Shown: piece by piece, positions 2,120 to 50,260 of the stretch
Layout: every line of letters begins with the position of its first letter
Position numbering within the stretch: the first letter of the stretch is position 1
Virus record (IMG/VR): IMGVR_UViG_3300050821_005877
Span: 1-50,260 of that record
Direction: 5' to 3' (one strand)
Length of the DNA stretch: 50,260 nucleotides
From: a virus
The notes under the pieces: model-generated
Database searches by the model: none
Told to the model about the DNA's origin: nothing
What the model saw: only the letters and a program-made list of their open reading frames with translations
Program-made: the position numbers and the translations under genes

Positions 2120-3835
2120 ATGGGCGTCCTTGACCGGGTCAACCGCCGCGCTGGGCGCCGTCCCGCCGAGCAGCGGTCGTCGATCGACCAGTGGATCACC
2201 GAGTACCTGCTGCCCAGCGGGATGGTGAACCAGTTCACCTTCGGCGGCCACGTGTACGGCATGGGGCAGCCGAACCTGACTTACGGGGCGAACAAGGCCC
2301 GCGAGTTCTCCAGCGACCTGCCGGGGCACACGGCGGCGGTGAAGGCGTGCCCGCCGGCGTTCGCCGCGGAGATGGTCCGGGCGCTGGTGCTGTCGCAGGC
2401 GCGGTTCACCTTGCGGAACCGGCCGTGGACGAAGACACCGCGGCGGACGTTCGGCACCTCGGCGCTGGGGCTGCTGGAGCGGCCGTGGCCGAACGGGACC
2501 ACCGGTGACCTGATCCGCAAGATGGAATGGCACGCGGGCCTCGCCGGGAACTCGTTCGTGACGAACTGGCAGCAGAACGGCCGGCTGCGGGTGCTGCGCC
2601 CCGACTGGTGCGCGGTCGTCTACGGGTCGCAGCAGGAACCGGACGACCCGACGGGTGCGCTGGACGGGGAGATCCTGGGGTACGTCTACCAGAACGGCGG
2701 CATCGGCCCGTTCAACCAGAACGAGCTGCGGACGCTGCCGGTGTCGTCGGTGGCGCACTGGTACCCGCTGCCGGACCCGGAGAACGCCGGGCTGGGCATG
2801 TCGTGGATCACTCCGGCGATCCGGGACATCCAGGGCGACATGCTTGCCGCCCAGCACAAGGTGACGTACTTCAGCAACGGGGCGACGCCGAACCTGGTGG
2901 TGAAGGGCATCCCGGCGGTCACCAAGGACCAGTTCAACGACATCGTTGACATGATCGACGACCGGCACACCGGGGTCGTGAACGCATACCGCACCCTGTA
3001 CCTGACCGCTGGCGCCGACGCTTCTGTCGTAGGCGCGAACCTGGCGGAGATCGACTTCCGCGCGGTGCAGGCCGGCGGGGAGACCCGGGTGTCGTTCCTG
3101 TCCCGGGTGCCCGCTCCGCTGCTCGGCATCGGCGAGGGCCTGCAGGGCTCCAGCCTGAACGCGGGGAACTTCGCGGCGAGCAGGCGGATGTTCGCCGACT
3201 CGTGGATCTACCCGGTGCTGCAGGACCTGGCGGCCACCCTGGCGCCGCTGGTGAGCGTGCCGGCGGACGCGGAGCTGTGGACCGACACCGCGGACATGCC
3301 GATCCTCCGCGAGGACGCCAAGGACGCCGCCGACATCGAGCAGGTGAAGGCGAACACGATCACCGCGCTGGTGAAGGACGGGTTCTCGCCGGAGTCGGCG
3401 ATCATCGCGGTGACCAGCCAGGACATGACGCAGCTGGTGCACACGGGGCTGGTGTCGGTGCAGTTGCAGCCGCCGCGGACCGAGCTGCAGAAGGCGCAGA
3501 CGATCCAGCTGCAGTCCCTGGCGGCGGAGTTGCTGGTCCGCGCCGGGTACACGACGGACTCCTCCCGGGACGCGGTCACCGCGCAGGACATGAGCCTGCT
3601 GAAGGTGGGCCCGCTGACGTCCCGGTACCTGATCGTGAACCCGCTGGAGGCGGGTGCGGAGCCGGGGGTGCCGAACGGGTTCCCCAACGGCCCGGCGATC
3701 GGCCTGCCAGCCCCTCCCGGCCTTCCGGCCGCAGCCCCGGCTGCGGCTGCGGCCGGGGAGGAAACGGAACCGGCGGAACCCGCTGGCGGTACCCCGGGGT
3801 TCGGCGGGGGTGCGCCGTCGGGATGGGACGACTGA
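2120..3835 (+). CDS. Portal protein, HK97/SPP1-type
   Basis: A 571-residue portal subunit forming the dodecameric ring through which DNA enters the head and to which the tail attaches. It follows terL and precedes the prohead protease, the standard order. Recognisable parts are the N-terminal wing (about residues 60-150), the aromatic-rich WHAGLAGNSFV stretch near residue 138, and the segment around LLGIGEGLQGSSLNAGNF (about residues 335-352), typical of phage portal proteins (clip/stem region). The C-terminal 60 residues are a low-complexity Ala/Pro/Gly tail. A good ribosome site (ctaggagg) precedes the ATG. Confidence 0.92.
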   Translation: MGVLDRVNRRAGRRPAEQRSSIDQWITEYLLPSGMVNQFTFGGHVYGMGQPNLTYGANKAREFSSDLPGHTAAVKACPPAFAAEMVRALVLSQARFTLRNRPWTKTPRRTFGTSALGLLERPWPNGTTGDLIRKMEWHAGLAGNSFVTNWQQNGRLRVLRPDWCAVVYGSQQEPDDPTGALDGEILGYVYQNGGIGPFNQNELRTLPVSSVAHWYPLPDPENAGLGMSWITPAIRDIQGDMLAAQHKVTYFSNGATPNLVVKGIPAVTKDQFNDIVDMIDDRHTGVVNAYRTLYLTAGADASVVGANLAEIDFRAVQAGGETRVSFLSRVPAPLLGIGEGLQGSSLNAGNFAASRRMFADSWIYPVLQDLAATLAPLVSVPADAELWTDTADMPILREDAKDAADIEQVKANTITALVKDGFSPESAIIAVTSQDMTQLVHTGLVSVQLQPPRTELQKAQTIQLQSLAAELLVRAGYTTDSSRDAVTAQDMSLLKVGPLTSRYLIVNPLEAGAEPGVPNGFPNGPAIGLPAPPGLPAAAPAAAAAGEETEPAEPAGGTPGFGGGAPSGWDD

Positions 3836-3851
3836 GGCCGGGAGGCATGTG

Positions 3852-4763
3852 ATGGCAGACAGCAAGCCCTACGGCTCGGTTGAGTACGCCGACCCGAAGA
3901 ACGGCAAGTACCCGATCGACACGAAGGCGCACGCCAAAGCGGCCCTTGCATATATCTCGATGCCGAAGAACGCGGCCAAGTACCCGCTGAACGGCGTCAC
4001 GCTCTCCTCGGTGAAGGGCCGCATCATGGCCGCTTGCAAGAAGTTCGGCATCGACACCAGCGGCAGCAACAGCGCCCCCGCGGACGGGGAGTACCGCACG
4101 GTCCCGTTCGAGGTGTCCTCGGCGCAGGCCAACGGCGACGGGCTCACCTTCGAGGGCTACGCGGCGGTGTACGACACCCCGACGCGGATCGCGGGCTGGG
4201 ATGAGGACTTCGACGAGCAGATCGCGATGGGCGCGTTCCGCGCTGTCGCCGAGGGCGCGTACCCGGTGCTGATGTTCGAGCACGGCCGGCACCCGCTGCT
4301 CGGCACGATGCCGCTGGGGAAGATCACCGACGCCCGCGAGGACGCGAAGGGGCTGTGGATCGAGGCGCGGCTGACGGACAACTGGCTGATCCAGCCGGTC
4401 CGGGACGCGGTCCGCGACCAGGCCCTCGACGGCATGTCGTTCCGGTTCACCGTCGACGGCGACGATGGCGAGACGTGGATGGACCGCGAGGGTGACGTGC
4501 CGCTGCGGACCCTGCTGCGGCTGAAGACCCCCGAGCTCGGCCCGGTGGTGTTCCCGGCGTACGAGCCAACGACCGCGAGCGTACGGTCGGTGCTTGACAA
4601 GCTTCCGGTCATCGGGCGGCCCCCGGCGGGTGCCAGGGCGGCGACAGACCGGGGAAGCGGCACGCCAGAGCGCGAGCCGCTGGTCCCCCTATCGGAGCGT
4701 TACCGCGGCGACGGCGAGGCACTCGCCCTCCGCGGCATCAAAGGAGTAAGAATCCATGCCTGA
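3852..4763 (+). CDS. Prohead protease with N-terminal DUF6582-like domain
   Basis: A 303-residue maturation protease that processes the capsid. Residues about 1-70 form a small charged domain (YADPKNGKYPIDTKAHAKAA and VKGRIMAACKKFGI) of the DUF6582 type often fused to phage proteins. Residues about 80-245 are the HK97-type (U35/S78) protease, with the expected His in LMFEHG and Ser in DGMSFRF. The frame stays open upstream, but the ATG at 3852 has a ggaggcatgtg ribosome site. It overlaps the capsid gene by 8 bases. Confidence 0.92.
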   Translation: MADSKPYGSVEYADPKNGKYPIDTKAHAKAALAYISMPKNAAKYPLNGVTLSSVKGRIMAACKKFGIDTSGSNSAPADGEYRTVPFEVSSAQANGDGLTFEGYAAVYDTPTRIAGWDEDFDEQIAMGAFRAVAEGAYPVLMFEHGRHPLLGTMPLGKITDAREDAKGLWIEARLTDNWLIQPVRDAVRDQALDGMSFRFTVDGDDGETWMDREGDVPLRTLLRLKTPELGPVVFPAYEPTTASVRSVLDKLPVIGRPPAGARAATDRGSGTPEREPLVPLSERYRGDGEALALRGIKGVRIHA

Positions 4764-6276
4764 CGAAACTGGCACCCTGGAAATCCTCCCCGAACTTCGG
4801 GACAAGGACCCGGGCAGCATCACCGAAGCGTCCGGGTACCCCGCGGAACTGCGCGGCAAGACGCCGGAGGAACTGGAGAAGTTCCTGTCCGTCCTCGACG
4901 CGCACCTGCGGTCCATCCACCAGACCGACGAGGGCGAACTGCGGGACAAGACCCCCGCCGAGTCCAAGGCGTTCGCGTACGGGCTGAAGCTCCGCGACCT
5001 GGCGATTACCCGCATCGAGGAGGACCGCGCCGTCCGCGAGGTGTTCTCCCGCCGCCCGAAGGCCGTGCAGGCCGCCATCGCCGCGAACGCCTACGACCAG
5101 CCGGGTGACCCGTTCGGCGCGGTGCGGCGCATGTCCGTCCCCGAAGCCCGCGACGCCGCGCTGCGGGTCCTGGATGACCGGGGCGCGTCCGCGCACCTGC
5201 GCAGCGACCAGAAGGACGTGGTGGAGCGGCAGGTCCGCAAGAACACCGACATCGCCCGCCGCATCCTGGTGACGGAGAACGACGCGTACCGGTCGGCGTG
5301 GATGAAGATGGTCACCGACCCGCAGGCCGCCGCGACCCTCACCGACGACGAGCGCACCGCCATGCAGGCGCACGGCGAGTACCGGGCCCTGTCGGAGGGC
5401 ACGACCACCGCTGGCGGCTTCGGCATCCCGGTGTTCATCGACCCGTCGATCATCATGACGGCGCAGGGCACGGATAACCCGTTCCTGCAGCTGGCCCGCC
5501 AGGTCGACGTGAACACGAACCAGTGGAAGGGCGTCTCGTCCGCTGGTGTGTCGTGGCACTTCAACTACGCGGAAGGTTCCGCGGTGTCGGACGACTCGCC
5601 GACCCTGGCGCAGCCGGTCGTGCCGATCTACATGGCCCGCGGGTTCCTCCCGTACTCCATCGAGGTCGGGCAGGACTACCCGGCGTTCGCCGACGAGATG
5701 GCCACCCTCCTCGCCGCCGGTTACGACGAGTTGCTGGTGGACAAGTTCACCCGCGGCGCGGGCGGCTCCAACCTGGAGCCCACCGGCATCCTCACCTCAC
5801 TGTCGGCGAACACGAACGTCCGGGTGGCGCTGACCACCGGCGGCACGGTCGGCGCACCGGACCCGTACAAGGTGTGGCAGGCGCTCCCGCAGCGGTTCCG
5901 CAGGAACGCCGCATGGCTGATGTCGGTGGCGACGAACAACGCGATCCGCCAGCTGGGCACGGCGAACGTGTACCACGCGTACACGGTGAACCTGCCGGAC
6001 GACTGGGCGGACACCCTGTTCCGCCGGGCCGTCCACGAGTCCCCGTACATGCCGGACAACACCACCAACACCACGTCCACGATCGGCATCGCCGTGGTCG
6101 GGGACTTCTCCAACTACCTGATCGCCCGCAGGGGCGGCATGTCGGTGGAGCTGGTGCCCATGCTGTTCGACGTGACCAACAACAGGCCCACCGCGCAGCG
6201 CGGCTGGTTCGCGTACAGCCGCATCGGCGGCGGCAGCGTGAACGACCTGGGCTTCCGCCTCCTCACGAACAGCTGA
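4756..6276 (+). CDS. Major capsid protein, HK97 fold, with scaffold-like N-terminus
   Basis: 506 residues. The first about 205 are highly charged and helical (repeated PEEL.KFL, AITRIEEDRAVR) and resemble the delta/scaffold domain removed by the adjacent protease. From about residue 210 (TTTAGGFGIPVFIDPSI) the HK97 capsid fold begins and runs to the end, with typical RFRRNAAWLMS and RGWFAYSRIGGGSVN segments. No separate scaffold gene is present, which fits a fused scaffold. The start overlaps the protease gene and has a ribosome site (aaaggagtaag). Confidence 0.93.
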   Translation: MPDETGTLEILPELRDKDPGSITEASGYPAELRGKTPEELEKFLSVLDAHLRSIHQTDEGELRDKTPAESKAFAYGLKLRDLAITRIEEDRAVREVFSRRPKAVQAAIAANAYDQPGDPFGAVRRMSVPEARDAALRVLDDRGASAHLRSDQKDVVERQVRKNTDIARRILVTENDAYRSAWMKMVTDPQAAATLTDDERTAMQAHGEYRALSEGTTTAGGFGIPVFIDPSIIMTAQGTDNPFLQLARQVDVNTNQWKGVSSAGVSWHFNYAEGSAVSDDSPTLAQPVVPIYMARGFLPYSIEVGQDYPAFADEMATLLAAGYDELLVDKFTRGAGGSNLEPTGILTSLSANTNVRVALTTGGTVGAPDPYKVWQALPQRFRRNAAWLMSVATNNAIRQLGTANVYHAYTVNLPDDWADTLFRRAVHESPYMPDNTTNTTSTIGIAVVGDFSNYLIARRGGMSVELVPMLFDVTNNRPTAQRGWFAYSRIGGGSVNDLGFRLLTNS

Positions 6277-10669: not shown

Positions 10670-11263
10670 GTGGTTCCCATCTCGTTCTTGACCGGCACCC
10701 AGACGGAGCTGCTGTACGCCTATTACGGCGCGTCGACGAACCTGGCCACGTTCACCACCGAAGACAACCTGATGAAGACGTACCCGTCGTGCGTGCTTCC
10801 CGGGTCGCTGTTCAGCAAGGTGGGCCCGCAGTCGTCGTCGTTCGAGCTGGTCGCCGCCGGGCAGATCGGCACGACCGCGACGCCGACGTTCACGTTCACG
10901 ATCCGGCTGATCTCCGGCGCGTCGGTGGCGTGGTCGGCGGGCGGGATCATCCTGGGCGCGTCGAACGCGATAACCGCCGCGTCCACGGTGACGCTGTCGC
11001 CGTTCCGCCTCCGTGCCCATATCGGGGTGCGGTCGATCGCGGCGGCCGGGTCGGCGACGACGGGGGTTGTGTGCCAGGGCAATATCGACGGGCCGGCGTT
11101 CACGGCCGCTGAGGGCAGCATCCCGGCGCCGGGGTCCTCGCCGCTGGTGTCCACCATCGACGTCGGCGCGACCTACTCGCTGTTCATCTCGGCGGCGTGC
11201 GGAACGTCGAACGCGCTGAACCTGGTTAACCTGCAATGCGTCAAGCTGTACGGCGAAAATTAG
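10670..11263 (+). CDS. Probable structural protein, unknown
   Basis: 197 residues, beta-rich and nearly free of charged residues in the centre: alternating FTFTIRLISG, AASTVTLSPFRLRAHIGV and LVSTIDVGATYSLFISAACG. This profile fits a virion surface or decoration protein. It starts at a GTG (10670) after gcaaagggg. Two Cys flank the C-terminal strands. No family recognised. It lies between the fibre-like protein and the AGAGAV-repeat protein. Confidence 0.65.
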   Translation: MVPISFLTGTQTELLYAYYGASTNLATFTTEDNLMKTYPSCVLPGSLFSKVGPQSSSFELVAAGQIGTTATPTFTFTIRLISGASVAWSAGGIILGASNAITAASTVTLSPFRLRAHIGVRSIAAAGSATTGVVCQGNIDGPAFTAAEGSIPAPGSSPLVSTIDVGATYSLFISAACGTSNALNLVNLQCVKLYGEN

Positions 11264-11312: not shown

Positions 11313-14174
11313 GTGGCCGCAACCGTCCGGTCCGCTTCCACGTACGCTTCGACGGTCACCGAGGCCGCGTTCTCGGTGCCGTTGCCGGCGGGGTTCGCCG
11401 CCGGGGATGTCTGTTACCTGTTCGCGGAGGGCCGCGCGTCCGCGGGCTCGTTCGGCACCACCCCCTCCGGGTGGACTGCCGTAGCGGCGTCGTTCGCTTC
11501 GGGTGCGTCCACGTCAAGCTTCATGGTCTGTTACCGCAAGGTGATGACCGGGGCTGAGGGCAGCCCGGCGCTGGCGGGCACGTCCGGCCGGTATTCCGCC
11601 GTCTGCGTGGCGGTGCAGGGCGCGGACGGCACCACGCCCGAGGACGTGGCGGTCGTCACCGACAACGGCGGCGTCAGCGCGATCACCACGATCACGTCCC
11701 CGGGGCTGACCCCGGCCGCGTCTAATGACCTGCTGCTCATCGGGTTCGGCTGCGGGACCCCCGCGTCGGCGCAGGTCATCACGTACTCGACGCCGTCGGG
11801 GATGACCCTGGCAGCGTCCACGTCGACGACGGTGGCGGCGGTCACCGAGTCCGGGATGATGGCCGCCAGCCTGGCGCTGGCCTCCAGCGCGGCGACCGGC
11901 ACCGAGGTCACGACGATCACCCCGTCCGCGATCGACGGGCAGACGGTCACAATCGCGGTCCGCGCGGCGGCCGTGGTGGTGGTGGCCGGGGCCGCGCAGG
12001 CGCAGCCGGGGCGGACGTGGCTGCGCCGGTTCCACCACCGGCAGCAGCAGCTTCCGGCCGCAGGCGCGGTCACCATCACGGCCACCGCGAACATCGCGGC
12101 CGCCGGCGCGGTCACTGCCCTGGTCACGCAGGACGCGGGCACCAGCACTGCCATCGTCGGCGCGGGCGCGGTCACCGCCCTGGTGACGCAGGACGCGGGC
12201 ACGTCCACGTCCCTGGCCGGTGCGGGCGCCGTCACCGCGGTGGGCGGTACTCCCGGTGGCGTGGCCGTCTACAACCTCTGCAACAACGGGTCAACGGCCA
12301 GCGTCTCCACGGTGGCAGCCACCGCAGGCACCACCGGCACCGGAACCCTCCAGGGCGCGGCTGCCGGGGACCTGATCGTCGTCATCTGCGCGAACACCCC
12401 CGGCGCTGGCACGACGATCAACGCCCCCACCGACACCCAGGGCAACACGTACAGCCTGGTCACGTCGGTGAATACGTCCGGGAGCCCGTGCCTGGCCGTT
12501 TACGCCTGCCTGACGACGGCCGCGCTGGTCGCCGGCACGGACGTGATCACCGGGCACTGGGCGAACACGGCCGCCCTGGGCAAGGCGATGATCGTCAAGG
12601 GCTGCAACGGTGTCTCGTCCGCTACGGCGGACAAGGCGGTCCTCGCAACCGGCTCTTCCACGGCACCGTCGTCGGGTACCTCGGGCACCCTGACGCAGGC
12701 CAGCGAAGTGGTGTTCGGCGCGTTCTACGACAGTTCCGGCGGCGGGGTTCCGGCCTCGCCATCGTTCGGAACCGTCCTGTCTCGTAACTTCAACGCTTTT
12801 TTCTCGGAGATAGACGAGGTAGTTTCGGCTACCACCGCCCAGACCGCCAGTGTCACCACCTCATCTGCGAACTGGGTCGCAGCGGTCACCACGTTCCTGC
12901 TGTCCACGGCCGCTACGGGCACCGCGAACATCGCCGGCGCTGGTGCGGTCACCGCGGTCACTGTCCAGGCTGTGACAGCGGCTCCCGCCGGCGCCGGGGC
13001 TGCCGCTGCGGTGGTCACCCAGGCTGCTGGCGCGTCCCTGGCGGGCGCGGGGTCGGTCACCGCGAAGGCCACGGTGATCCCCGGCACTACGACGATCGCG
13101 GGGGCCGGGGCGGTCGCCGCCCTGGTCACTGAGGCTGCCGTCGCTGCTTCCGCTGGTGCGGGCGCTGTGACGGGCGCTGTCACCGAGATCGCAGGCACTA
13201 CGACGATCGCGGGTGCCGGCGCGGTCACCGGCGCCGTGACCCAGATCGCCCCAGCCGCCGCCGCAGGTGCGGGCGCCGTCGCTGACGTTGTCACCCAGGC
13301 GGTCACCGCGGGCCTGGCGGGCGCTGGTGCGGTCACGGCTAACGCGACGGTGTCGGGGCTGTCCGTCGCCACCGCCACGATCGCCGGGGCGGGCGCGGTC
13401 AGCGCCCTGGTAACCGAGACCGTCACGGCGGCTCCCGCTGGCGCGGGGTCGGTGACCGCGGTTGTCACCGAAGCCGCCACGGCCACGGCCGCTGGTGCCA
13501 GCACGGTCACCGCGAAGACCGTCCAGGGCGTCACCGCGTCCCTGGCGGGCGCTGGCACCGTCACCCCGGTCGTCACTGAGGCGGTCACCGCTGCGCTGGC
13601 CGGTGCGGGCGCGGTCGCTGACGCGGCCGTCCAGGCGGTCACCGCGTCCCTGGCGGGCGCCGGGGCGGTCACCGCTGCGCCGACCGTCCCGGGTGCCCCG
13701 GCCACGGCATCGCTCGCTGGTGCCGGTGCGGTGTCCGCAGTGGCCACGGTGGCAGCTCCCGCCACGGCCGCGGGTGCCGGGGCGGTCACCGCCGCAGTCA
13801 CGCAGGCGGCGAAGGCCACGGCTGCCGGCGCGGGCGCCGTTAACGCGTCCGGGCAGATCACCGGGACGGCGAACCTGGCCGGGGCCGGTGCGGTCGCGGC
13901 GAGCGTCACACAGGCCGCTGGCGCCACGGCAGCTGGTGCCGGCGCCCTGGCCGCGCTCGCCGCGCAGGCCGCCACGGCATCCCTCGCGGGCGCGGGGTCA
14001 GTCACCGCCGCGGGGGGCATCCAGGTCGCGTTCACCGTCGGCGCGCTGAGCGCCACTGTGGCGCCTTCGGCCGTCCTGGCAGTCACGGGCGGGCCCAGCA
14101 GCGCGCTGAGCGCCAGCACGGCGCCGTCCAGCACCCTCACAGCCACCACAGCCCGGACGGGAGGACCGAGTTGA
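11313..14174 (+). CDS. Large AGAGAV-repeat virion protein with two beta-sandwich domains
   Basis: 953 residues starting at a GTG behind gagaggcggtag. Residues about 1-215 and 318-530 are two related beta-rich domains (each with an AAGD[VL] strand, W or F positions and a final VT.A/TTFL strand), similar to the N-terminus of the tail hub at 21934. Between them (about 249-309) are 4, and after them (about 540-905) 20, copies of an about 18-residue unit of the form AGAGAVTAxVTQAxxAxL. The protein has very few charged residues over 360 positions. The C-terminal 45 residues carry a second short repeat (GALSA..APS). A fibre, spike or decoration role is inferred. The stop overlaps the TTG start of the connector. 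Confidence 0.75.
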   Translation: MAATVRSASTYASTVTEAAFSVPLPAGFAAGDVCYLFAEGRASAGSFGTTPSGWTAVAASFASGASTSSFMVCYRKVMTGAEGSPALAGTSGRYSAVCVAVQGADGTTPEDVAVVTDNGGVSAITTITSPGLTPAASNDLLLIGFGCGTPASAQVITYSTPSGMTLAASTSTTVAAVTESGMMAASLALASSAATGTEVTTITPSAIDGQTVTIAVRAAAVVVVAGAAQAQPGRTWLRRFHHRQQQLPAAGAVTITATANIAAAGAVTALVTQDAGTSTAIVGAGAVTALVTQDAGTSTSLAGAGAVTAVGGTPGGVAVYNLCNNGSTASVSTVAATAGTTGTGTLQGAAAGDLIVVICANTPGAGTTINAPTDTQGNTYSLVTSVNTSGSPCLAVYACLTTAALVAGTDVITGHWANTAALGKAMIVKGCNGVSSATADKAVLATGSSTAPSSGTSGTLTQASEVVFGAFYDSSGGGVPASPSFGTVLSRNFNAFFSEIDEVVSATTAQTASVTTSSANWVAAVTTFLLSTAATGTANIAGAGAVTAVTVQAVTAAPAGAGAAAAVVTQAAGASLAGAGSVTAKATVIPGTTTIAGAGAVAALVTEAAVAASAGAGAVTGAVTEIAGTTTIAGAGAVTGAVTQIAPAAAAGAGAVADVVTQAVTAGLAGAGAVTANATVSGLSVATATIAGAGAVSALVTETVTAAPAGAGSVTAVVTEAATATAAGASTVTAKTVQGVTASLAGAGTVTPVVTEAVTAALAGAGAVADAAVQAVTASLAGAGAVTAAPTVPGAPATASLAGAGAVSAVATVAAPATAAGAGAVTAAVTQAAKATAAGAGAVNASGQITGTANLAGAGAVAASVTQAAGATAAGAGALAALAAQAATASLAGAGSVTAAGGIQVAFTVGALSATVAPSAVLAVTGGPSSALSASTAPSSTLTATTARTGGPS
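12061..12243 (+). repeat. Four N-terminal AGAGAV coding repeats
   Basis: Four successive units of about 18 codons (AAGAVTITATANI, AAAGAVTALVTQDA, VGAGAVTALVTQDA, AGAGAVTAVGG) precede the second beta domain. Two of them share the DNA string gcggtcac(c/t)gccctggt(c/g)acgcaggacgcgggcac almost exactly, pointing to recent local duplication. Confidence 0.8.
12934..14028 (+). repeat. Twenty C-terminal AGAGAV coding repeats
   Basis: About 1.1 kb of tandem, diverged coding repeats, period near 54 bp. The first half of each unit (AGAGAV) is almost fixed; the second half alternates VVTQA, VVTEA or VATV types. One unit reads AGASTV and one AGAGAA. Codon variation between copies shows the repeats are old and kept by selection at protein level. 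Confidence 0.85.
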
Positions 14175-29412: not shown

Positions 29413-29597
29413 ACACCGTCACCGATTACAGGGTGCCACCACCACCAGGGGCCCCGGACAGTGTCACTCTCCGTGTAGGACACGGGCTGTGACACTGTCC
29501 CACGTTGTCCCAGGCCACAGGCGAAACAGCGCGGCGAAGCCGCGCCCAGCGGGCGGGCGTTTCGCCCCTGTATTCTCGGGGGCCCCAAATCGGTCAC
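29409..29597 (-). CDS. Possible 62-aa coupled ORF across a hairpin
   Basis: MTDLGPPRIQGRNARPLGAA, a CFAC pair, then SYTESDTVRGPWWWWHPV. It fits the gap between two genes exactly, with ATGA and GTGA overlaps at its ends, which favours translation. However, the middle is dictated by the inverted repeat at 29456-29500 and the composition is unusual, so it may only be spacing around a DNA or RNA element. Confidence 0.3.
   Translation of the reverse strand: MTDLGPPRIQGRNARPLGAASPRCFACGLGQRGTVSQPVSYTESDTVRGPWWWWHPVIGDGV
29456..29500. repeat. 45-bp nested perfect inverted repeat
   Basis: GGACAGTGTCAC (29456-29467) pairs perfectly with GTGACACTGTCC (29489-29500). Inside, CCGTGT and ACACGG pair around a 3-base loop, separated by symmetric 3-base bulges. 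The result is an 18-bp hairpin with one internal loop. It lies within the reverse transfer module between the HNH-like and membrane zinc-ribbon genes. It could be a transfer or replication origin structure, operator or RNA element. Confidence 0.8.
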
Positions 29598-30334
29598 TGT
29601 GCGTCACTATTCCGGCGGGACGCTTCCCGGCGATTTATCACCCTGCGTAGCCATGACCCTGTGTGACCAGCGGCGCGGGCTGCGGCGTTCAGCTCCTCCT
29701 CCACGACGACCAGGCGCGGGCACGGGCCGGCGTGCACGTGCAGGCCACCCTTGGTCACCGCCAGCCGGTACACCCCGGCCGGCGGGTAATCCAGGTCATC
29801 CGCCACCTGGTCGAGCATCTTCCCCCCCGCCAGTTCCCCCGCCGCCGCGACGCCCATCGCCGTCATGCAGTCGGGGCAGTTCCGTGCCCGGCCGCGGTGG
29901 CCCATGCCGCACCGGGGGCACGTCCTCTCCGGCCTTGGGGGCCGCGCCGCGGCCATGTCCGCCAGGTTGCGCCCGCGGGTTCCCCACTGGATGTTCTCCG
30001 GCCACCGGTTGTCCTGCGGCCCTCCCGGGCCGTGGCAGCACTCCTCCCACGCCTCCGGGTCGCGGTCATGGGACCGCAGGACCCCCGAGTGCATGGTGAC
30101 CGTCTTCTTAGTGCCGTCATCCAGGCGGATGTCCACCAGGACGTACCCCTGGTTGTTCAGCCTCGTCGCCAGCTCCTTGCCGGGGTAGAACTTGCCGCCG
30201 ATCGTCCGGTCCACCGACCGGGCCTTCCCGCGGTGGGAGAACTCGTAGTACCCCGCGCCCGGGTACGGCATCCACTCCTGGCCGGGGGGCGGGTTGTCCG
30301 GCGGCCTGCCTGTCAGGGTGTCACTGTCTGTCAT
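29594..30334 (-). CDS. NUMOD4-HNH-like nuclease with zinc and C-terminal helical region
   Basis: 246 residues from ATG 30334 (ATGA overlap with the translocase stop). Residues about 20-60 (EWMPYPGAGYYEFSHRGKARSVDR) match the NUMOD4 DNA-binding motif. About 60-125 (VTMHSGVLRSH, WEECCHGPGGPQDNRWPENIQWGTRGRNL) match an HNH_3 nuclease: His, Asn and the W/GT.R.N end. A zinc pair follows (CPRCGMGHRGRARNCPDC), then a GVYRLAVTKGG part. It is probably a site-specific endonuclease, either homing type or serving DNA transfer. Confidence 0.75.
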   Translation of the reverse strand: MTDSDTLTGRPPDNPPPGQEWMPYPGAGYYEFSHRGKARSVDRTIGGKFYPGKELATRLNNQGYVLVDIRLDDGTKKTVTMHSGVLRSHDRDPEAWEECCHGPGGPQDNRWPENIQWGTRGRNLADMAAARPPRPERTCPRCGMGHRGRARNCPDCMTAMGVAAAGELAGGKMLDQVADDLDYPPAGVYRLAVTKGGLHVHAGPCPRLVVVEEELNAAARAAGHTGSWLRRVINRREASRRNSDAQ

Positions 30335-32085
30335 CGGAGCACCTTCTCCTTCTCCCACGCGTCCAGGTCGCTCGGCCGGTACCGCTTGGCGACACCGGAA
30401 CCGTCCTCCGGGTTCAGCGGCACCGGGAATCCCGGGCGCTGCGCTTCCTTCCGCGCCGACTCCAGGCTGCGGCGCAGCACACTCTCAGCGATGGCCTGCG
30501 CGAGGGTCATTCCTAGGACATTCGGCTGGTCAGGGCTCATATGGATGGCGTCAGGAGCTGGGACAGGCAGTTCCGCGGGGGACGCGGCACCGGGCATATC
30601 CAGGGGGCAGCCGGTGACGGTGCCGCCGACCGCCAGCTCACGCACCTGCTCCAGGTCCATCAGCGGCACCTGGGTTTCGCTGACCCCGCCGGACGCGATG
30701 CACTGAACCCTGCCGGGCACAGACGGTGACGGCGGCATGGGCACGTCACCCGCCTGCATCTTCCACGAGTTCTGCGTGTACCGGGCCAGGCACCGCACCC
30801 CGATGTTCTCCCGCACCGACCCGCCACCGAGCGTCTCCGCGGTCAGCTGCTGCCCGATGACGATCAGGTGCATCTTCACCGCCCGGCCAGCGAACGCCAC
30901 CCCCCCGAACGCGGTCAGCGCCGGGGACTTCTTCACGTCCTCCTTGTCCCGGACGTCAGCCCAGTGCTGCTTCAGCAGCGGGGTGGCCAGGTTCATCTCC
31001 TCCGCCACGATCCACAACCGGGGGCCGACATCCTTGAGCAGGTCACCTTTCGCATTGATGACGCGCTCCGCGGCGAGGGTGCGGGACGACAGTTCCCGGC
31101 CCAGCCACAGCATCGCCTCATGCAGGTCCGGTATCCACCGGGCATACCGGACGTTCGGCAGCAGCCCGTACTCGGCGTCCATGTCCTTGAATGCCCACGG
31201 ATGACTGAAATGCTTGGCGTCCAGAATCAGGGCGATGTCACCCTGCCGCAACCGCTGCACCAGCCAGAACGCCGCCAGGTTCGACTTCCCCGCGCCCGTG
31301 CCCATGCTGATCCCGAAGTGCGGCGAGTCGGTTTCCACCGACACCTTGATGACCTCGCTGTGCTTCCCGATGCCGGTGACCAGTTCATGCGCCGCTTTGG
31401 CGGCGACCTTCGGGGCGATCTGATCCCAGGTGACCAGCGTCGGCGGCGGGTCGCTGTGCTTCACGATGATCCGCGGCTTATGCCCGGCCAGGGCGCCGAA
31501 GTCGAAGTCGGGTGCCTCCAGCTCGGGGAGCGCCACGGCCACGGCCCGCTGAACGTCGTCCCGGTTCCGGTCGCTGGCAGTGAAATCCCGCGGCGGGTAC
31601 AGCACCACCTCGGCATCCCGGTTGGTGGCGTAGTCCGGGGGGATGGCCAGCCAGTCGCCCGGCTTGGTGCTCGGCGGGAGCGCCAGCAGCGGGGCCAGCT
31701 TCCAGTGCAGCGGGCGCACCCGGGACCGGTAATGCCCCCACTCCGGCCACCACAAGGCAGCGCGGATCAGCGCGCACCCAAGGAGAACGCCCGCAACGAC
31801 GGCCATCACGCGCTCCGTGCCGCCGCGGTGGAACAGCAGCGCCCACCCTGCCGCGCCCGGCACCCAGAACATGACCACCGCGCGTTTCCACCCCGCGAGG
31901 CGCGGCCACCACGGGTTCCGGGACCAGTGGTGCGGTTCGGCTTCCGTCCCGTCGTGCCAGATCGTGGCGTCGCTGCGCCGGTGGCCGTCGAGGTGCTGCC
32001 CGGTGGCGGCCCGGACGGTGAGCTTCAGCAGCACCCACAGCGCGGCGCCGAGGGAGTCCAGGAACCCTTGGGGCTTACCCGCCAT
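30331..32085 (-). CDS. FtsK/SpoIIIE-type DNA translocase, TraB-like
   Basis: 584 residues. Membrane segments lie near residues 68-110 (AVVMFWVPGAAGWALLF, VMAVVAGVLLGCALIRAALWW). The ATPase core has Walker A GTGAGKSN (about residue 262), Walker B LWIVAEEMN (about 360) and an IVIGQQLTAETLGG region (about 410). The size and plan are those of TraB-like septal DNA translocators used by actinomycete plasmids and integrative elements to move double-stranded DNA between cells. The C-terminal 130 residues are variable and could carry a DNA-recognition helix (YRPSDLDAWEKEKVL). Some actinophages carry FtsK-like genes, so packaging or segregation roles are alternatives. Confidence 0.85.
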   Translation of the reverse strand: MAGKPQGFLDSLGAALWVLLKLTVRAATGQHLDGHRRSDATIWHDGTEAEPHHWSRNPWWPRLAGWKRAVVMFWVPGAAGWALLFHRGGTERVMAVVAGVLLGCALIRAALWWPEWGHYRSRVRPLHWKLAPLLALPPSTKPGDWLAIPPDYATNRDAEVVLYPPRDFTASDRNRDDVQRAVAVALPELEAPDFDFGALAGHKPRIIVKHSDPPPTLVTWDQIAPKVAAKAAHELVTGIGKHSEVIKVSVETDSPHFGISMGTGAGKSNLAAFWLVQRLRQGDIALILDAKHFSHPWAFKDMDAEYGLLPNVRYARWIPDLHEAMLWLGRELSSRTLAAERVINAKGDLLKDVGPRLWIVAEEMNLATPLLKQHWADVRDKEDVKKSPALTAFGGVAFAGRAVKMHLIVIGQQLTAETLGGGSVRENIGVRCLARYTQNSWKMQAGDVPMPPSPSVPGRVQCIASGGVSETQVPLMDLEQVRELAVGGTVTGCPLDMPGAASPAELPVPAPDAIHMSPDQPNVLGMTLAQAIAESVLRRSLESARKEAQRPGFPVPLNPEDGSGVAKRYRPSDLDAWEKEKVLR

Positions 32086-32806
32086 GGGTGGCGTACCCGT
32101 TGAGGTGAGTCCCGGCCGGGGCCGGGGGCATGGCGGCGTCAGCCACCCCGGCCGGGACGTGAGCAGCCGGGACGGTCCTGGAATGGTCCCGCTGGGATGA
32201 ACCGCCCCGGCTGGTCTCTTGGGTGACCTGGCCGCGCGCTTTCGCCGCCTCGCTGCGGGTCAGGCCAAAGTCTGCACGCGCCTCATTGTCGCTGTACCGG
32301 AAACGATGGTCCGCAGCCTCCCGCATGCGCGCTTTCGCCGCCTCGAAAGACGACGACGGAACCGTGCCGGGCGAAGCGGCCGGGGCGGTGCCTAGGGCGT
32401 CTAGGACGGGACCGCCCCGGCCACGCCTAACATGCCACAGCACAACCTCGGCGGCGACGAAAAACGCCACCGGCACCAGGCCGTCCATCACCGCGTCCAG
32501 CACCGAATGCGCGATCCCCGCGCCCGCGTTCATCGCCAGGGTCATCGCCACCCCCAGCAGCACCGCGCCCGTCGCCCACCTCGACCGGGGGATGTCACGG
32601 CGGGCCGCCTCCAGCAGGGCCAGGAGGCCCACCACGATCAGGCCATCCGGGAGGAACGGGTACAGGAACGCCTGCCGGTCGTGGTTCCCCGCCAGCCGGG
32701 CCACGAACAGGCCGTCGTTGTAGGAGATGACGGCGGCGATCGACGCGATGAACAACCCGGCCAGGGCGTACTGCCAGCCAGCGCGGTTGCCTGTACGGTT
32801 CGTCAT
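32075..32806 (-). CDS. DUF2637 (SpdB-like) membrane protein
   Basis: 243 residues: four hydrophobic segments between about 12 and 125 (ALAGLFIASIAAVISYNDGLF, FLPDGLIVVGLLALLEAA, ATGAVLLGVAMTLAMNAGAG, GLVPVAFFVAAEVVLWHV), then a hydrophilic tail with an HTH-like element (RYSDNEARADFGLTRSEAAKARG). This is the DUF2637 plan, known from plasmid spread (Spd) proteins of Streptomyces that act with TraB. It overlaps the translocase gene by 11 bases, which couples the two. Confidence 0.85.
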   Translation of the reverse strand: MTNRTGNRAGWQYALAGLFIASIAAVISYNDGLFVARLAGNHDRQAFLYPFLPDGLIVVGLLALLEAARRDIPRSRWATGAVLLGVAMTLAMNAGAGIAHSVLDAVMDGLVPVAFFVAAEVVLWHVRRGRGGPVLDALGTAPAASPGTVPSSSFEAAKARMREAADHRFRYSDNEARADFGLTRSEAAKARGQVTQETSRGGSSQRDHSRTVPAAHVPAGVADAAMPPAPAGTHLNGYATHGG

Positions 32807-32866
32807 GGTCCCTCCTAGCGGGGCCGGGCCCCGGGCGCACGCGGAAGCGTCCCGGGGCCACTGTCG

Positions 32867-33046
32867 TCAGGTCTTGGCGGCCTGCTGGCGGCGCACGATC
32901 TCGTCCCGGGCACGGGCCTCTTTGGTGGTACCGCGGCGGTGACACCGGCACTCGCACACGATGCCGTCCCGGATCAGGCCGCCCCCGCAGGACTCGCAGC
33001 GGCCCACGGCGCAGGCCAGCCTGGATTTGCGCAGTTCGGTACTCAT
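32867..33046 (-). CDS. 59-aa zinc-ribbon protein
   Basis: Starts MSTELRKSRLACAVGRCESC and continues GGGLIRDGIVCECRCH, then a basic helix. It has a C-x2-C ... C-x-C-x-C cluster. The ATG overlaps the stop of the DUF397 gene (ATGA). Bases 32807-32866 between it and the SpdB-like gene contain only a ribosome site and GC-rich hairpin potential. Confidence 0.65.
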   Translation of the reverse strand: MSTELRKSRLACAVGRCESCGGGLIRDGIVCECRCHRRGTTKEARARDEIVRRQQAAKT

Positions 33047-33288
33047 CCCGGCATCCTCCCGTCCTTCACCCCGGCCACGAACACGGCCCATGCCTCCGGG
33101 GCGAACGCCAGCACCGGGCCAGCCGGGTCCTTCGAGTCGCGCACGGCCACCACGTCACCCGGGGCCACCTCCACGCAGTGACCGTTGACCCCGCTGTACG
33201 ACGACTTGTGGAACTCAGGCTCAGGCACGTCAACCTCCACGCAGTTCCCCGAAGGGTTCGAGTACGACGACTTGCGCCACCCGGTCAC
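33043..33288 (-). CDS. DUF397 protein with duplicated KSSYS motif
   Basis: 81 residues from GTG 33288. DUF397 is an actinomycete-specific small domain, usually encoded next to XRE regulators, with W(R)KSSYS...G.CVEV...VAVRDSKDP.GPVL.F. Here the first half is present twice: WRKSSYSNPSGNCVEV and FHKSSYSGVNGHCVEVAP, then VAVRDSKDPAGPVLAFAPEAW. It forms a coupled chain with its neighbours (GTGA and ATGA overlaps). Function in phages is unknown; a regulatory partner role is inferred from the family. Confidence 0.85.
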   Translation of the reverse strand: MTGWRKSSYSNPSGNCVEVDVPEPEFHKSSYSGVNGHCVEVAPGDVVAVRDSKDPAGPVLAFAPEAWAVFVAGVKDGRMPG

Positions 33289-33635
33289 TTCTTCTCCCCC
33301 CACCCCTCGGGCCAGTTTGACGGGCCGCTGTTCATCCCGACACCTAGCGGCGGGATGTTCGCCGCGTCGGTGTACCGGTCCCGGTGCTCCGCCGCGCGGG
33401 TGATCCAGCCGACGACCACGGCCACCGTCGCCGGGGCAGCCGTCCCGGCCAGCCACAGCGCGATCGCGTGATCATAGGCGGCCAGTTCCACCCCCGCCGC
33501 GCGCAGCGTGTCCTCGATCAGCCGGTGATTCCCGTCCGTCACCGCCGCCGGCGGTGAGGCGAGGATGTGCGCCACCGCGCCCTCCGCCTCGGCCAGCGTC
33601 TCGTACGGCCCCGGGGCCGCGTGGTGCTCCGTCAT
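33285..33635 (-). CDS. Hypothetical protein of the transfer module
   Basis: 116 residues from MTEHHAAPGPYETLAEAEGA. Helical, with LIEDTLRAAGVELAAYDHAIALWLA and VAVVVGWITRAAEHRD, and a polar end (GMNSGPSNWPEGWGEK). Similar proteins accompany DUF397 and SpdB genes in actinomycete mobile elements (recalled). The frame is open for 17 more codons upstream, without a ribosome site. Confidence 0.65.
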   Translation of the reverse strand: MTEHHAAPGPYETLAEAEGAVAHILASPPAAVTDGNHRLIEDTLRAAGVELAAYDHAIALWLAGTAAPATVAVVVGWITRAAEHRDRYTDAANIPPLGVGMNSGPSNWPEGWGEKK

Positions 33636-33685
33636 CGTTCCCCCTCCTGGCCGCCCGTACGTCAGCGGCGGATCGAGCAGCTTCA

Positions 33686-33844
33686 TTACCCGTGCAGGTG
33701 CATGTCCGGGGCGCTCGTGCCGCTGCCGTCAGCGGACGGGGGCCCGTGCAGGTGCATGTCCGGGGCGCTCACCCCGGCGGCGACAGCGGCGGCGACCGCG
33801 AGGGCACCGAGGACGGCGAGAGCGCGCTTGGCGATGACTGGCAT
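33686..33844 (-). CDS. Tiny exported peptide with duplicated SAPDMHLHG motif
   Basis: 52 residues with an excellent AGGAGG ribosome site. Residues 1-27 are a signal-peptide-like stretch (MPVIAKRALAVLGALAVAAA ending AGVSA). The remaining 25 residues are SAPDMHLHG, a linker, and SAPDMHLHG again as the exact C-terminus. His and Met pairs could bind copper or another metal, or serve as an extracellular signal. It is the first gene of the reverse module. No family known to me. Confidence 0.75.
   Translation of the reverse strand: MPVIAKRALAVLGALAVAAAVAAGVSAPDMHLHGPPSADGSGTSAPDMHLHG
33689..33716. repeat. 28-bp direct repeat, copy 1 (peptide gene)
   Basis: A 28-bp string beginning cccgtgcaggtgcatgtccg is repeated exactly at 33743-33770. 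It encodes the C-terminal SAPDMHLHG copy. Perfect identity at DNA level points to a recent duplication. Confidence 0.9.
33743..33770. repeat. 28-bp direct repeat, copy 2 (peptide gene)
   Basis: Exact second copy of the string at 33689-33716, encoding the first SAPDMHLHG after the signal segment. Confidence 0.9.
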
Positions 33845-33976
33845 GGTTCCTCCTAGCGGAGACGGTAGTGGCCTACACGTTACGGAATCACGATAGATCA
33901 TGCTAGTAGTATCTAGGCAATCCTGCCGTACCTTAGCTAGCGTGATAGATCATGTTCCGATAGAGACGAGAGGGCT
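33845..33976. promoter_or_regulatory. Divergent promoter region with two GATAGATCATG repeats
   Basis: This 132-base AT-richer gap separates the reverse transfer module from the GntR gene. GATAGATCATG occurs at 33892-33902 and 33944-33954, 52 bp apart (about five helix turns). A shorter gatagaga follows at about 33959. On the - strand a TTGCCT could be a -35 box with the first repeat over the -10. The GntR protein encoded alongside is the obvious candidate ligand. Confidence 0.5.
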
Positions 33977-34243
33977 ATGCCAGTACAGACTTGGCGTGTG
34001 GAACTCGACCGCGACAGCGACGTGCCCCTCTACCAGCAGATCGCGAACCTGCTGCGCGCCGACATCGAAGCTGGCACCTACCCTCCCGGGGCCGTGATCC
34101 CGTCAGTCAAGAGCATCGAGCAGATGACCGGCTGCACCCACGTCACCGTCCGCAAGGGCATCGACATCCTGGAAGACGAGGGCCTCGTCATCGTCCGACC
34201 CGGCAAGGGCACCTACGTCGCGCGGCGGGAGAACGGCCAGTGA
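33977..34243 (+). CDS. GntR-family regulator (KorSA-like plan)
   Basis: 88 residues, essentially only the GntR winged helix: PLYQQIANLLRADIEAGTYPPGAVIPSVKSIEQMTGCTHVTVRKGIDILEDEGLVIVRPGKGTYVA. There is no effector domain. Such minimal GntR repressors (KorSA in pSAM2) control transfer and excision in Streptomyces integrative elements. It is divergent from the transfer-like module, and repeats lie in the shared promoter, so it probably represses that module and itself. Confidence 0.85.
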   Translation: MPVQTWRVELDRDSDVPLYQQIANLLRADIEAGTYPPGAVIPSVKSIEQMTGCTHVTVRKGIDILEDEGLVIVRPGKGTYVARRENGQ

Positions 34244-48831: not shown

Positions 48832-48893
48832 GCGGCCTGTGAGGCTCCGCAACCTGCCCGGGCGCCGTCACTGCGCGAGCGGGTCGTTACGAA

Positions 48894-48961
48894 CGGGAGA
48901 TCGCCGGGTGCGGTGCCCGGCCTCGCATCTGGGCGTGTAGCAGTAGCAGGTATGCACCCGT
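48894..48961. repeat. 68-bp direct repeat, copy 1
   Basis: A 68-bp segment beginning cgggagatcgccgggtgcgg and ending tatgcacccgt is identical at 49572-49639, 678 bp away. It can fold into two hairpins: AGAT-c-GCCGGG-loop-CCCGGC-ctcgc-ATCT and GGGCGTGTA-loop-TATGCACCC (with one mismatch and two wobbles). It ends 23 bases before the GTG of the 48985 gene. An ATG within it opens a 4-codon frame (MHPF, stop). Confidence 0.9.
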
Positions 48962-48984
48962 TCTGACCCGAAGGTGGTGACCTT

Positions 48985-49341
48985 GTGCCGATCGGCCTGG
49001 TCACCAACAAGCAGCTCCAGGTCCTCCTGCTAGCGGTCGCCGCGACTGTGGCGGCCGTCCAGCGGTCCGTGCAAGAACTCAACCAGAAAATGGACGCAAT
49101 CATGACCGCACAGGACGACATCAACGCCGCCGACGCCGCGATCGAAGGCGAGCTTGCCGACTCGGCCACCAGGGATGCGGCGATCCTCGCGGCGCAGGAG
49201 AAGCTCCTGGCCACCATCGCCGGCCTTCAGGGCGCAGGCGTGAGCACCACGCAGCTGGTCGCTGACACCGCTGCGCTGCTGCAGGCGCAGGGTGCTGACG
49301 ACGCAACCGTGGCCGCGCTGACCGCCGCCGCAGGGGCCTGA
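48985..49341 (+). CDS. 118-aa helical protein with N-terminal hydrophobic helix
   Basis: GTG behind gaaggtggtg. Residues 9-25 (KQLQVLLLAVAATVAAVQRS) could be a weak membrane anchor, then long heptad helices (VQELNQKMDAIMTAQDDINA, AILAAQEKLLATIAGLQGAG). A Gly-linked end follows. The pattern resembles small phage coiled-coil proteins made around virion or lysis genes; function unknown. Confidence 0.65.
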   Translation: MPIGLVTNKQLQVLLLAVAATVAAVQRSVQELNQKMDAIMTAQDDINAADAAIEGELADSATRDAAILAAQEKLLATIAGLQGAGVSTTQLVADTAALLQAQGADDATVAALTAAAGA

Positions 49342-49397
49342 CGTGAAGCGCCGCAACATGCGCGAAGTGCGCCGCTGCGCCAGCGGGGAGTTACCAC

Positions 49398-49562
49398 ATG
49401 TTCGGCATCGCCGCGGTTGTCGCGTTCGCCATTGCGCTGCTGATGCACCTGTTCGGCTGGGGCAGCGGCAAGGTCGACGTGGTGCTGTTCGAGCTGGCGG
49501 GGTTCCTGCTGCTGGCGCTGCACGTGGTGACCGGCTGGCAGCCGTGGCACCGCGGGGCGTGA
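49398..49562 (+). CDS. 54-aa two-span membrane protein
   Basis: MFGIAAVVAFAIALLMHLFG, a short turn (WGSGKVDVVL) and FELAGFLLLALHVVTGW. A ggggag ribosome site precedes the ATG. Small membrane proteins of this shape (hydrophobic - GxG - hydrophobic - W) are common just before actinophage packaging genes. Bases 49343-49397 before it show no convincing gene; a GTG frame at 49343 runs against this one with Arg-rich shadow composition. Confidence 0.65.
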   Translation: MFGIAAVVAFAIALLMHLFGWGSGKVDVVLFELAGFLLLALHVVTGWQPWHRGA

Positions 49563-49571
49563 AATCGTGGG

Positions 49572-49639
49572 CGGGAGATCGCCGGGTGCGGTGCCCGGCC
49601 TCGCATCTGGGCGTGTAGCAGTAGCAGGTATGCACCCGT
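49572..49639. repeat. 68-bp direct repeat, copy 2
   Basis: Exact copy of 48894-48961. Here the ATG inside the repeat (49630) is in frame with the following small gene, so the repeat may also supply its translation start. Confidence 0.9.
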
Positions 49640-49788
49640 CCCCCGGCAGGCACTTCATGCGGCGGCCGTTCCGGCTCAACCCCGACACGGGCTGGTACGT
49701 GTCGTGCTCGTGCGGGGAATGGTCGGCGACGGTCAAGGGCAAGAAGCTGCGGGCGCGGAACGCGTGGCTGGCGCACGCAGGCGGCTGA
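49630..49788 (+). CDS. 52-aa protein with CSC zinc-type motif
   Basis: From ATG 49630 (inside the 68-bp repeat) or ATG 49657 (MRRPFRLNPD). Contains WYVSCSCGEWSATVKGKKLR and ARNAWLAHAGG, the C-x-C-G-W...A...W..H pattern of small actinophage proteins, probably metal binding. It ends two bases before the HNH gene. Confidence 0.65.
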   Translation: MHPSPGRHFMRRPFRLNPDTGWYVSCSCGEWSATVKGKKLRARNAWLAHAGG

Positions 49789-50137: not shown

Positions 50138-50260
50138 GCCTCGGCATCTGACCATCCTTTGGCCCTCCGGCCATCCGTGAAATCTAGCGGCGACCCGGGG
50201 GGGTGGGTGATGACGGGAAGTGACCACCCGCGACCCCGCAGCCATCGCTCGATATTTACA
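50138..50260. other. Noncoding junction between HNH and terminase genes (possible cos)
   Basis: With bases 1-98 this makes about 200 bases free of convincing genes. It contains a G-run (acccgggggggtgggtg), a later cacccgcgacc and the 19-bp end identity. In cos phages with an adjacent HNH gene, the cut site lies here. No exact cut position can be inferred from sequence alone. Confidence 0.4.
50242..50260. repeat. Right copy of 19-bp terminal identity
   Basis: Identical to bases 1-19; removing one copy gives a circle of 50,241 bp. Confidence 0.9.

Follow-up and report, generated by a model that had tools for sequence, protein, structure and literature searches.

The 68-bp direct repeat in the DNA analysed here (the window, that is, the whole stretch of 50,260 bases) probably represents two copies of an ultra-small dispersed, structured and probably mobile element of about 73-75 nt. 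Small dispersed structured repeats are already known from bacterial chromosomes. A 75-nt unit spreading between phages, with a covarying closing stem and no tie to a gene, would rank among the smallest known, and would offer a short testable sequence for studying the movement of such minimal elements and their mode of action, be it RNA or folded DNA.

Anatomy of the repeat

Sequence comparison within the 50,260-base record confirmed that positions 48894-48961 and 49572-49639 are identical over 68 bp at a spacing of 678 bp, as an earlier note on this DNA had reported. BLAST and a model search found only these two copies (n=2) in the whole record, and chance was excluded for the repeat (BLAST E = 3e-31). 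Both copies also carry the internal ATG that the note had described: the one at 48952 gives MHPF-stop and the one at 49630 is in frame with the following small ORF. Its statement that the copies are noncoding held for copy 1, which is intergenic, but not strictly for copy 2, since a GTG-started frame (49567-49788, 73 aa) crosses the entire element into the next gene. The two successive hairpins it proposed were about right (P2 and a weaker P3), but an outer closing stem, P1, lying beyond the 68 bp, had been missed. The 68-bp repeat is thus the conserved middle of a slightly larger unit of about 73-75 nt. On the plus strand, this unit covers 48891..48963 in copy 1 (W1, core plus a 7-bp closing stem) and 49569..49641 in copy 2 (W2, core and the stem GGGCGGG/CCCGTCC, in which one pair is G.U). 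Both were delimited by flank pairing together with a match to the model (R1); the 104 bits scored by W1 arise by construction, W1 having been included in the model.

Alignment of four copies, two from the window and two from other phages, defined a core of 59-60 nt (AGATC...GTATGCA). The core occupies 48898..48956 in copy 1 and, with identical sequence, 49576..49634 in copy 2 (59 nt, plus strand). It comprises the P2 hairpin GCCGGGTGCGGTGCCCGGC (48903..48921, plus strand, in copy 1; 49581-49599 in copy 2), the weak P3 hairpin CTCGC(ATCTGG)GCGTG (48922..48937, plus strand, in copy 1; 49600-49615 in copy 2) and a 19-nt tail, which contains the word GTAG and for which pairing was unsupported. The third pair of P2 changes from C-G to A-U in the contig L008, and the arms of P3 are invariant, with a loop that differs in length in the contig L010. 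Apart from that P3 loop and one P2 loop base (G to A in L008), all changes in the core and P1 fall in kept pairs. Folding energy of the window copies was unremarkable when compared with shuffles of the same base composition (z = -0.8 and -0.1), and the case for structure therefore rests on covariation, not on stability. An alternative long hairpin, part of the minimum-energy fold of the window copies, was rejected as it is not kept in L010.

Covariation in the closing stem

P1 reaches outside the 68-bp repeat, and its letters differ between the two window copies while the pairing is kept: GAACGGG/CCCGTTC in W1 (left arm 48891..48897, right arm 48957..48963, plus strand) and GGGCGGG/CCCGTCC in W2. 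In the other two copies (L008, L010) the arms are GTGACAGG/CCTGTCAC and GGGGCGGC/GCCGCCCC, and the arms of the window copies do not pair with those of L010. The stem is 7, 7, 8 and 8 consecutive bp long in the four copies, against a chance of 0.0017 for at least 7 and 0.0007 for at least 8 such pairs at random window positions. Two-sided compensatory change was seen in six pairs where 1.7 were expected, a count equalled in 0 of 500 shuffles, and the signal vanished when the partners were slid by 1-3 columns. P2 has one compensatory pair (the change in L008) and P3 none.

The sample behind these counts is four sequences from three genomes, two of them near-identical. Since the inner four P1 pairs of W1 and W2 are common by descent, the window copies count as little more than one case, one of the two adding only the outer three P1 pairs independently. 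On this alignment, covariation is strong for P1 and thin for P2. The consecutive closing pairs and their compensatory changes suggest that what is preserved is a folded single strand, not a motif of duplex DNA. The earlier note had named single copies in relatives, devoid of base-pair covariation, as the finding that would speak against a structured element; single copies were indeed found, but with covariation.

Copies in other phages and dispersal

The element occurs once each in two other uncultivated phage contigs, L008 and L010, at 101-104 bits, anything else scoring below 21 bits. L008 was reached through a protein search with the second of the small genes that follow the window copies, and when IMG/VR was scanned for exact patterns taken from several parts of the element, L008 and L010 were the only true members. 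L010 is part of G007, a sibling that is 39.6 kb long and colinear with the window phage, in which TerL is 73% identical at the amino acid level and matched DNA mostly 64-85%, vs about 91% for the element. The terminase of L008 is clearly different from that of the window phage, yet the element is 94% identical. Across these phages, similarity is greater in the element than in the genomes that carry it.

No further copy was present in 84 related records, many of them fragments, which comprised five contigs with relatives of the first small gene and 79 terminase relatives. The covariance models of Rfam 15 gave no match over the element in the window, L008 or L010 up to E = 5, a tRNA search found nothing, and no match to it was found in annotated phage and plasmid records. 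The best plasmid stretches, when followed up, were chance. Bacterial genomes were covered by one exact 18-base pattern only, whose matches in GTDB genomes were unrelated and had neither P1 nor AGATC. Eight of 10 viral matches to the tail pattern were unrelated sequence in AT-rich contigs. Weak model matches of 15-20 bits in relatives lacked most of the core, and one of them resembled a tRNA.

The four sites differ in context: 5' of a 118-aa gene (W1), at the 5' end of a 52-aa gene (W2), with an HNH gene on one side and the terminase region on the other (L008), and with GntR-type genes on one side and an integrase on the other (L010). Three of the four copies share a strand with the neighbouring genes, and that in L010 runs antisense to the genes flanking it. 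Flanks were dissimilar at all four sites. The element is all that G007 3500-5300 shares with the window or G006; beyond it, this stretch resembled neither the window nor any of the 37 related records at the DNA level, and in a comparison of about 20 related contigs the element stood as an isolated intergenic island. The same unit was therefore seen at non-homologous sites, and corresponding sites devoid of it were found in L003, L004 and L008. At the level of sequence comparison, the unlike flanks, the sharing of the element alone and the empty sites show dispersal as a unit of about 75 bp; its mechanism of mobility we infer. Of the other roles offered by the earlier note, a packaging site is unlikely because the L010 copy sits in an integrase/GntR region, and a recombination site is possible.

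Proposed mode of action and spread

We propose that a 59-60-nt core with P2, a probable P3 and the 19-nt tail is closed by a 7-8-bp P1, free in sequence and kept in pairing, and that the element would function as a folded single strand. It may spread independently, through recombination within the pool of phages or through a trans-supplied enzyme that recognises hairpins, and may be a parasite or confer some small benefit. Landing next to a gene would rewrite the 5' end of that gene, copy 2 supplying a likely start codon, and the two direct copies could recombine, dropping the intervening 678 bp. No transposase, HUH nuclease or RAYT was recognised among the window proteins scanned. Between action as RNA and as single-stranded DNA, we hold RNA to be slightly ahead.

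A tenable but less probable explanation is a structured RNA acting in cis, through antitermination like that of HK022 put, translation control or RNA stability, which was gained by mosaic exchange among phages and not by mobility of its own. It would account for the P2 closing U.G and the G.U in P1 of W2, which exist on the plus strand only, for the better folding of the plus strand than of the minus strand, for the prevalence of copies on their neighbours' strand and for the position of both window copies just ahead of a start codon; the size and two-hairpin form also resemble put (PMC9378689). It fits less well with the antisense copy in L010, with downstream genes that are not consistent and with the lack of an Rfam match. 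Furthermore, a scan for sites of sigma70 type found nothing promoter-like or terminator-like near the window copies, and put as described has two stem-loops but no outer closing stem.

Rather unlikely, in our estimate, is mobility in the form of folded single-stranded DNA, similar to REP or IS200/IS605 ends, the closing stem being formed with, or selected by, the target. Occurrence in both orientations, sharp edges and the GTAG in the tail agree with it, and so do the insertion ends. For copy 1, alignment to L003, where the left arm is missing from the corresponding site, favoured excision of GAACGGG together with the core, with CCCGTTC staying behind as resident, by a small margin (alternatives lay within 1-3 points). 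The left arm of L008, GTGAC, is likewise resident in both L003 and L004, and at that place L004 carries a GTGAC...GTCAC pair. Exact insertion ends are uncertain because the relatives have diverged. Against such DNA stand a GTAG that is not directly before the hairpin as in REPs (PMC8266576), the failure to recognise a TnpA and the very low copy number. Flank pairing beyond P1, which would be expected on insertion into an existing longer hairpin, was also not above chance; insertion into pre-existing dyads was thus rejected and P1 is 7-8 bp long in every copy. A bolder reading, which we put forward only tentatively and regard as doubtful, is a new class of ultra-small phage-borne mobile element, in which a near-invariant core of about 60 nt would have its closing helix completed by target sequence, so coupling insertion and folding.

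Genes next to the window copies

The earlier note had placed a structured control element, or a start-associated sequence, ahead of two small genes. Compensatory changes in the window copies and in two other phages bore out the structured part; control ahead of the two genes was not borne out, relatives of both genes being found that lack the element. The 118-aa gene after copy 1 (48985..49341, plus strand, no known family) has relatives in L003-L007 that are devoid of it, and relatives of the 52-aa gene (49630..49788, plus strand, no known family, a reading frame with its probable start codon inside copy 2) occur in L003 and L008 with no element at that gene. A gene-specific leader or start-associated sequence of the two genes is therefore very improbable, even with the element ahead of both window genes and the copy 2 ATG in frame. 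Other copies have no such gene downstream. In L008 some 300 bp separate the copy from the gene that comes next, and in L010 the copy is antisense to its neighbours. Presence of the element does not follow that of particular genes, and the 13-bp start-associated sequence (SAS) of mycobacteriophages was not above chance in the window, with no match at up to 2 mismatches and 10 at 3 mismatches vs about 20 expected.

We attribute the effects of the element on gene starts to where it lies and do not read them as evidence of regulation. About 21 nt separate the end of copy 1 from a GTG start, which has a plausible ribosome-binding site. The N-termini around the 52-aa gene are alike in the window (GRHFMRRP), L008 (AGHFMRRP) and L003 (DGHYMRRP), a likeness suggesting a gene start that lies upstream of the ATG at 49657. 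The original start of this gene was probably replaced by the ATG of the element at 49630, or by the GTG at 49567, whose frame crosses the whole element.

Between the copies lies a gene for a 54-aa membrane-type protein (49398..49562, plus strand), with a homologue in G007 at 12919-13070. The two genes share 78% DNA identity at different genome positions (12.9 kb in G007), with no element near the G007 gene.

The window phage genome

The record is a metagenome contig of an uncultivated virus, with an exact 19-bp direct repeat at its ends (1-19 and 50242-50260). In the related contig G019, the terminase comes after an HNH gene at roughly the distance that joining the two window ends would give, and the record is therefore probably a complete genome of 50,241 bp. 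Its origin might raise the suspicion of an assembly duplication, or of chance similarity, which we practically dismiss given an element with different flanks in contigs of other metagenomes and with compensatory changes, and a repeat that assembly can resolve because 68 bp is below the usual length of short reads.

The window phage encodes a terminase, portal, tape measure, serine integrase, Erf annealing protein and replication initiation protein, and its nearest isolates by terminase (about 30% identity) infect Actinobacteria. Several other features were observed. The region 29594-34243 carries FtsK/SpoIIIE-like (a weak match) and DUF2637 genes on the minus strand and a GntR regulator on the opposite one, a set that recalls the transfer modules of actinobacterial integrative elements, here in a tailed phage; the sibling G007 has a related set. 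Within it, the ORF at 29594-30358 gave a sub-threshold NUMOD4 match and possibly encodes a homing-type endonuclease. A degenerate repeat array with 54-base spacing (12920-14146) lies inside a 953-aa ORF (11313-14174). In another contig, G027 (locus L150), a near-perfect 43-bp palindrome, GACCGGTCATCAGTGACCGGTCACCGGTCACTGATGACCGGTC, lies at 10732-10774 close to an HNH-like region.

Comparison with known systems

The put RNAs of HK022 are about 70 nt long with two stem-loops, occur in two copies downstream of early promoters and suppress termination through the zinc-binding domain of the RNAP beta' subunit (PMC9378689). The element shares their length, the two predicted hairpins and the presence of two copies in a phage genome. 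Unlike put, its sites vary, one copy is antisense, an outer closing stem is present and no promoter was found in the sigma70-type scan.

In cluster K mycobacteriophages, the 13-bp SAS GGGATAGGAGCCC and ESAS with 17-bp inverted repeats are tied to gene families, with 11-19 copies near start codons (PMC3203893). The actinophage setting and a repeated sequence close to start codons are common to both, but in relatives the element is not bound to one gene family. PeSL cassettes of T4-type phages (Arbiol et al. 2010; Comeau et al. 2014; cited in PMC4503421) combine an early promoter and a terminator. Like the element, they are small intergenic stem-loop units repeated in phage genomes, with a potential use in recombination; a strong sigma70 promoter with a terminator stem-loop was not found at the element by the sigma70-type scan.

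REP/REPIN sequences are short intergenic hairpins spread non-autonomously with TnpA-REP (RAYT) (PMC3116915, PMC8266576). The element is also a short intergenic hairpin unit and contains a GTAG word; unlike REP/REPIN it has no GTAG-plus-palindrome layout, with no GTAG/GGAG at a palindrome foot (its GTAG belongs to the tail, and no supported hairpin has its foot there), no RAYT was seen among the window proteins scanned, and it is of low copy number and resides in phages. Rickettsia palindromic elements are mobile, 105-146 bp long, with terminal inverted repeats, in bacterial chromosomes (PMC2229807). They resemble the element, itself probably mobile, as palindromic mobile units, and as bacterial small mobile sequences that can be read in frame into genes.

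The element thus lacks a defining feature of SAS/ESAS, PeSL and REP/REPIN. Similar in kind are the small dispersed repeats (SDR) of Nostoc, which Elhai et al. in 2008 reportedly described as 21-27 nt long, in cyanobacterial chromosomes and with compensatory changes. Like SDR, the element is very small, dispersed in varied contexts and backed in its structure by compensatory changes, here in six pairs. It differs in size, layout and host, being about 75 nt long, with two hairpins and a closing stem, at 1-2 copies per genome in actinophage-like genomes. On this comparison we class it as a new family of a known kind, the small dispersed structured elements.
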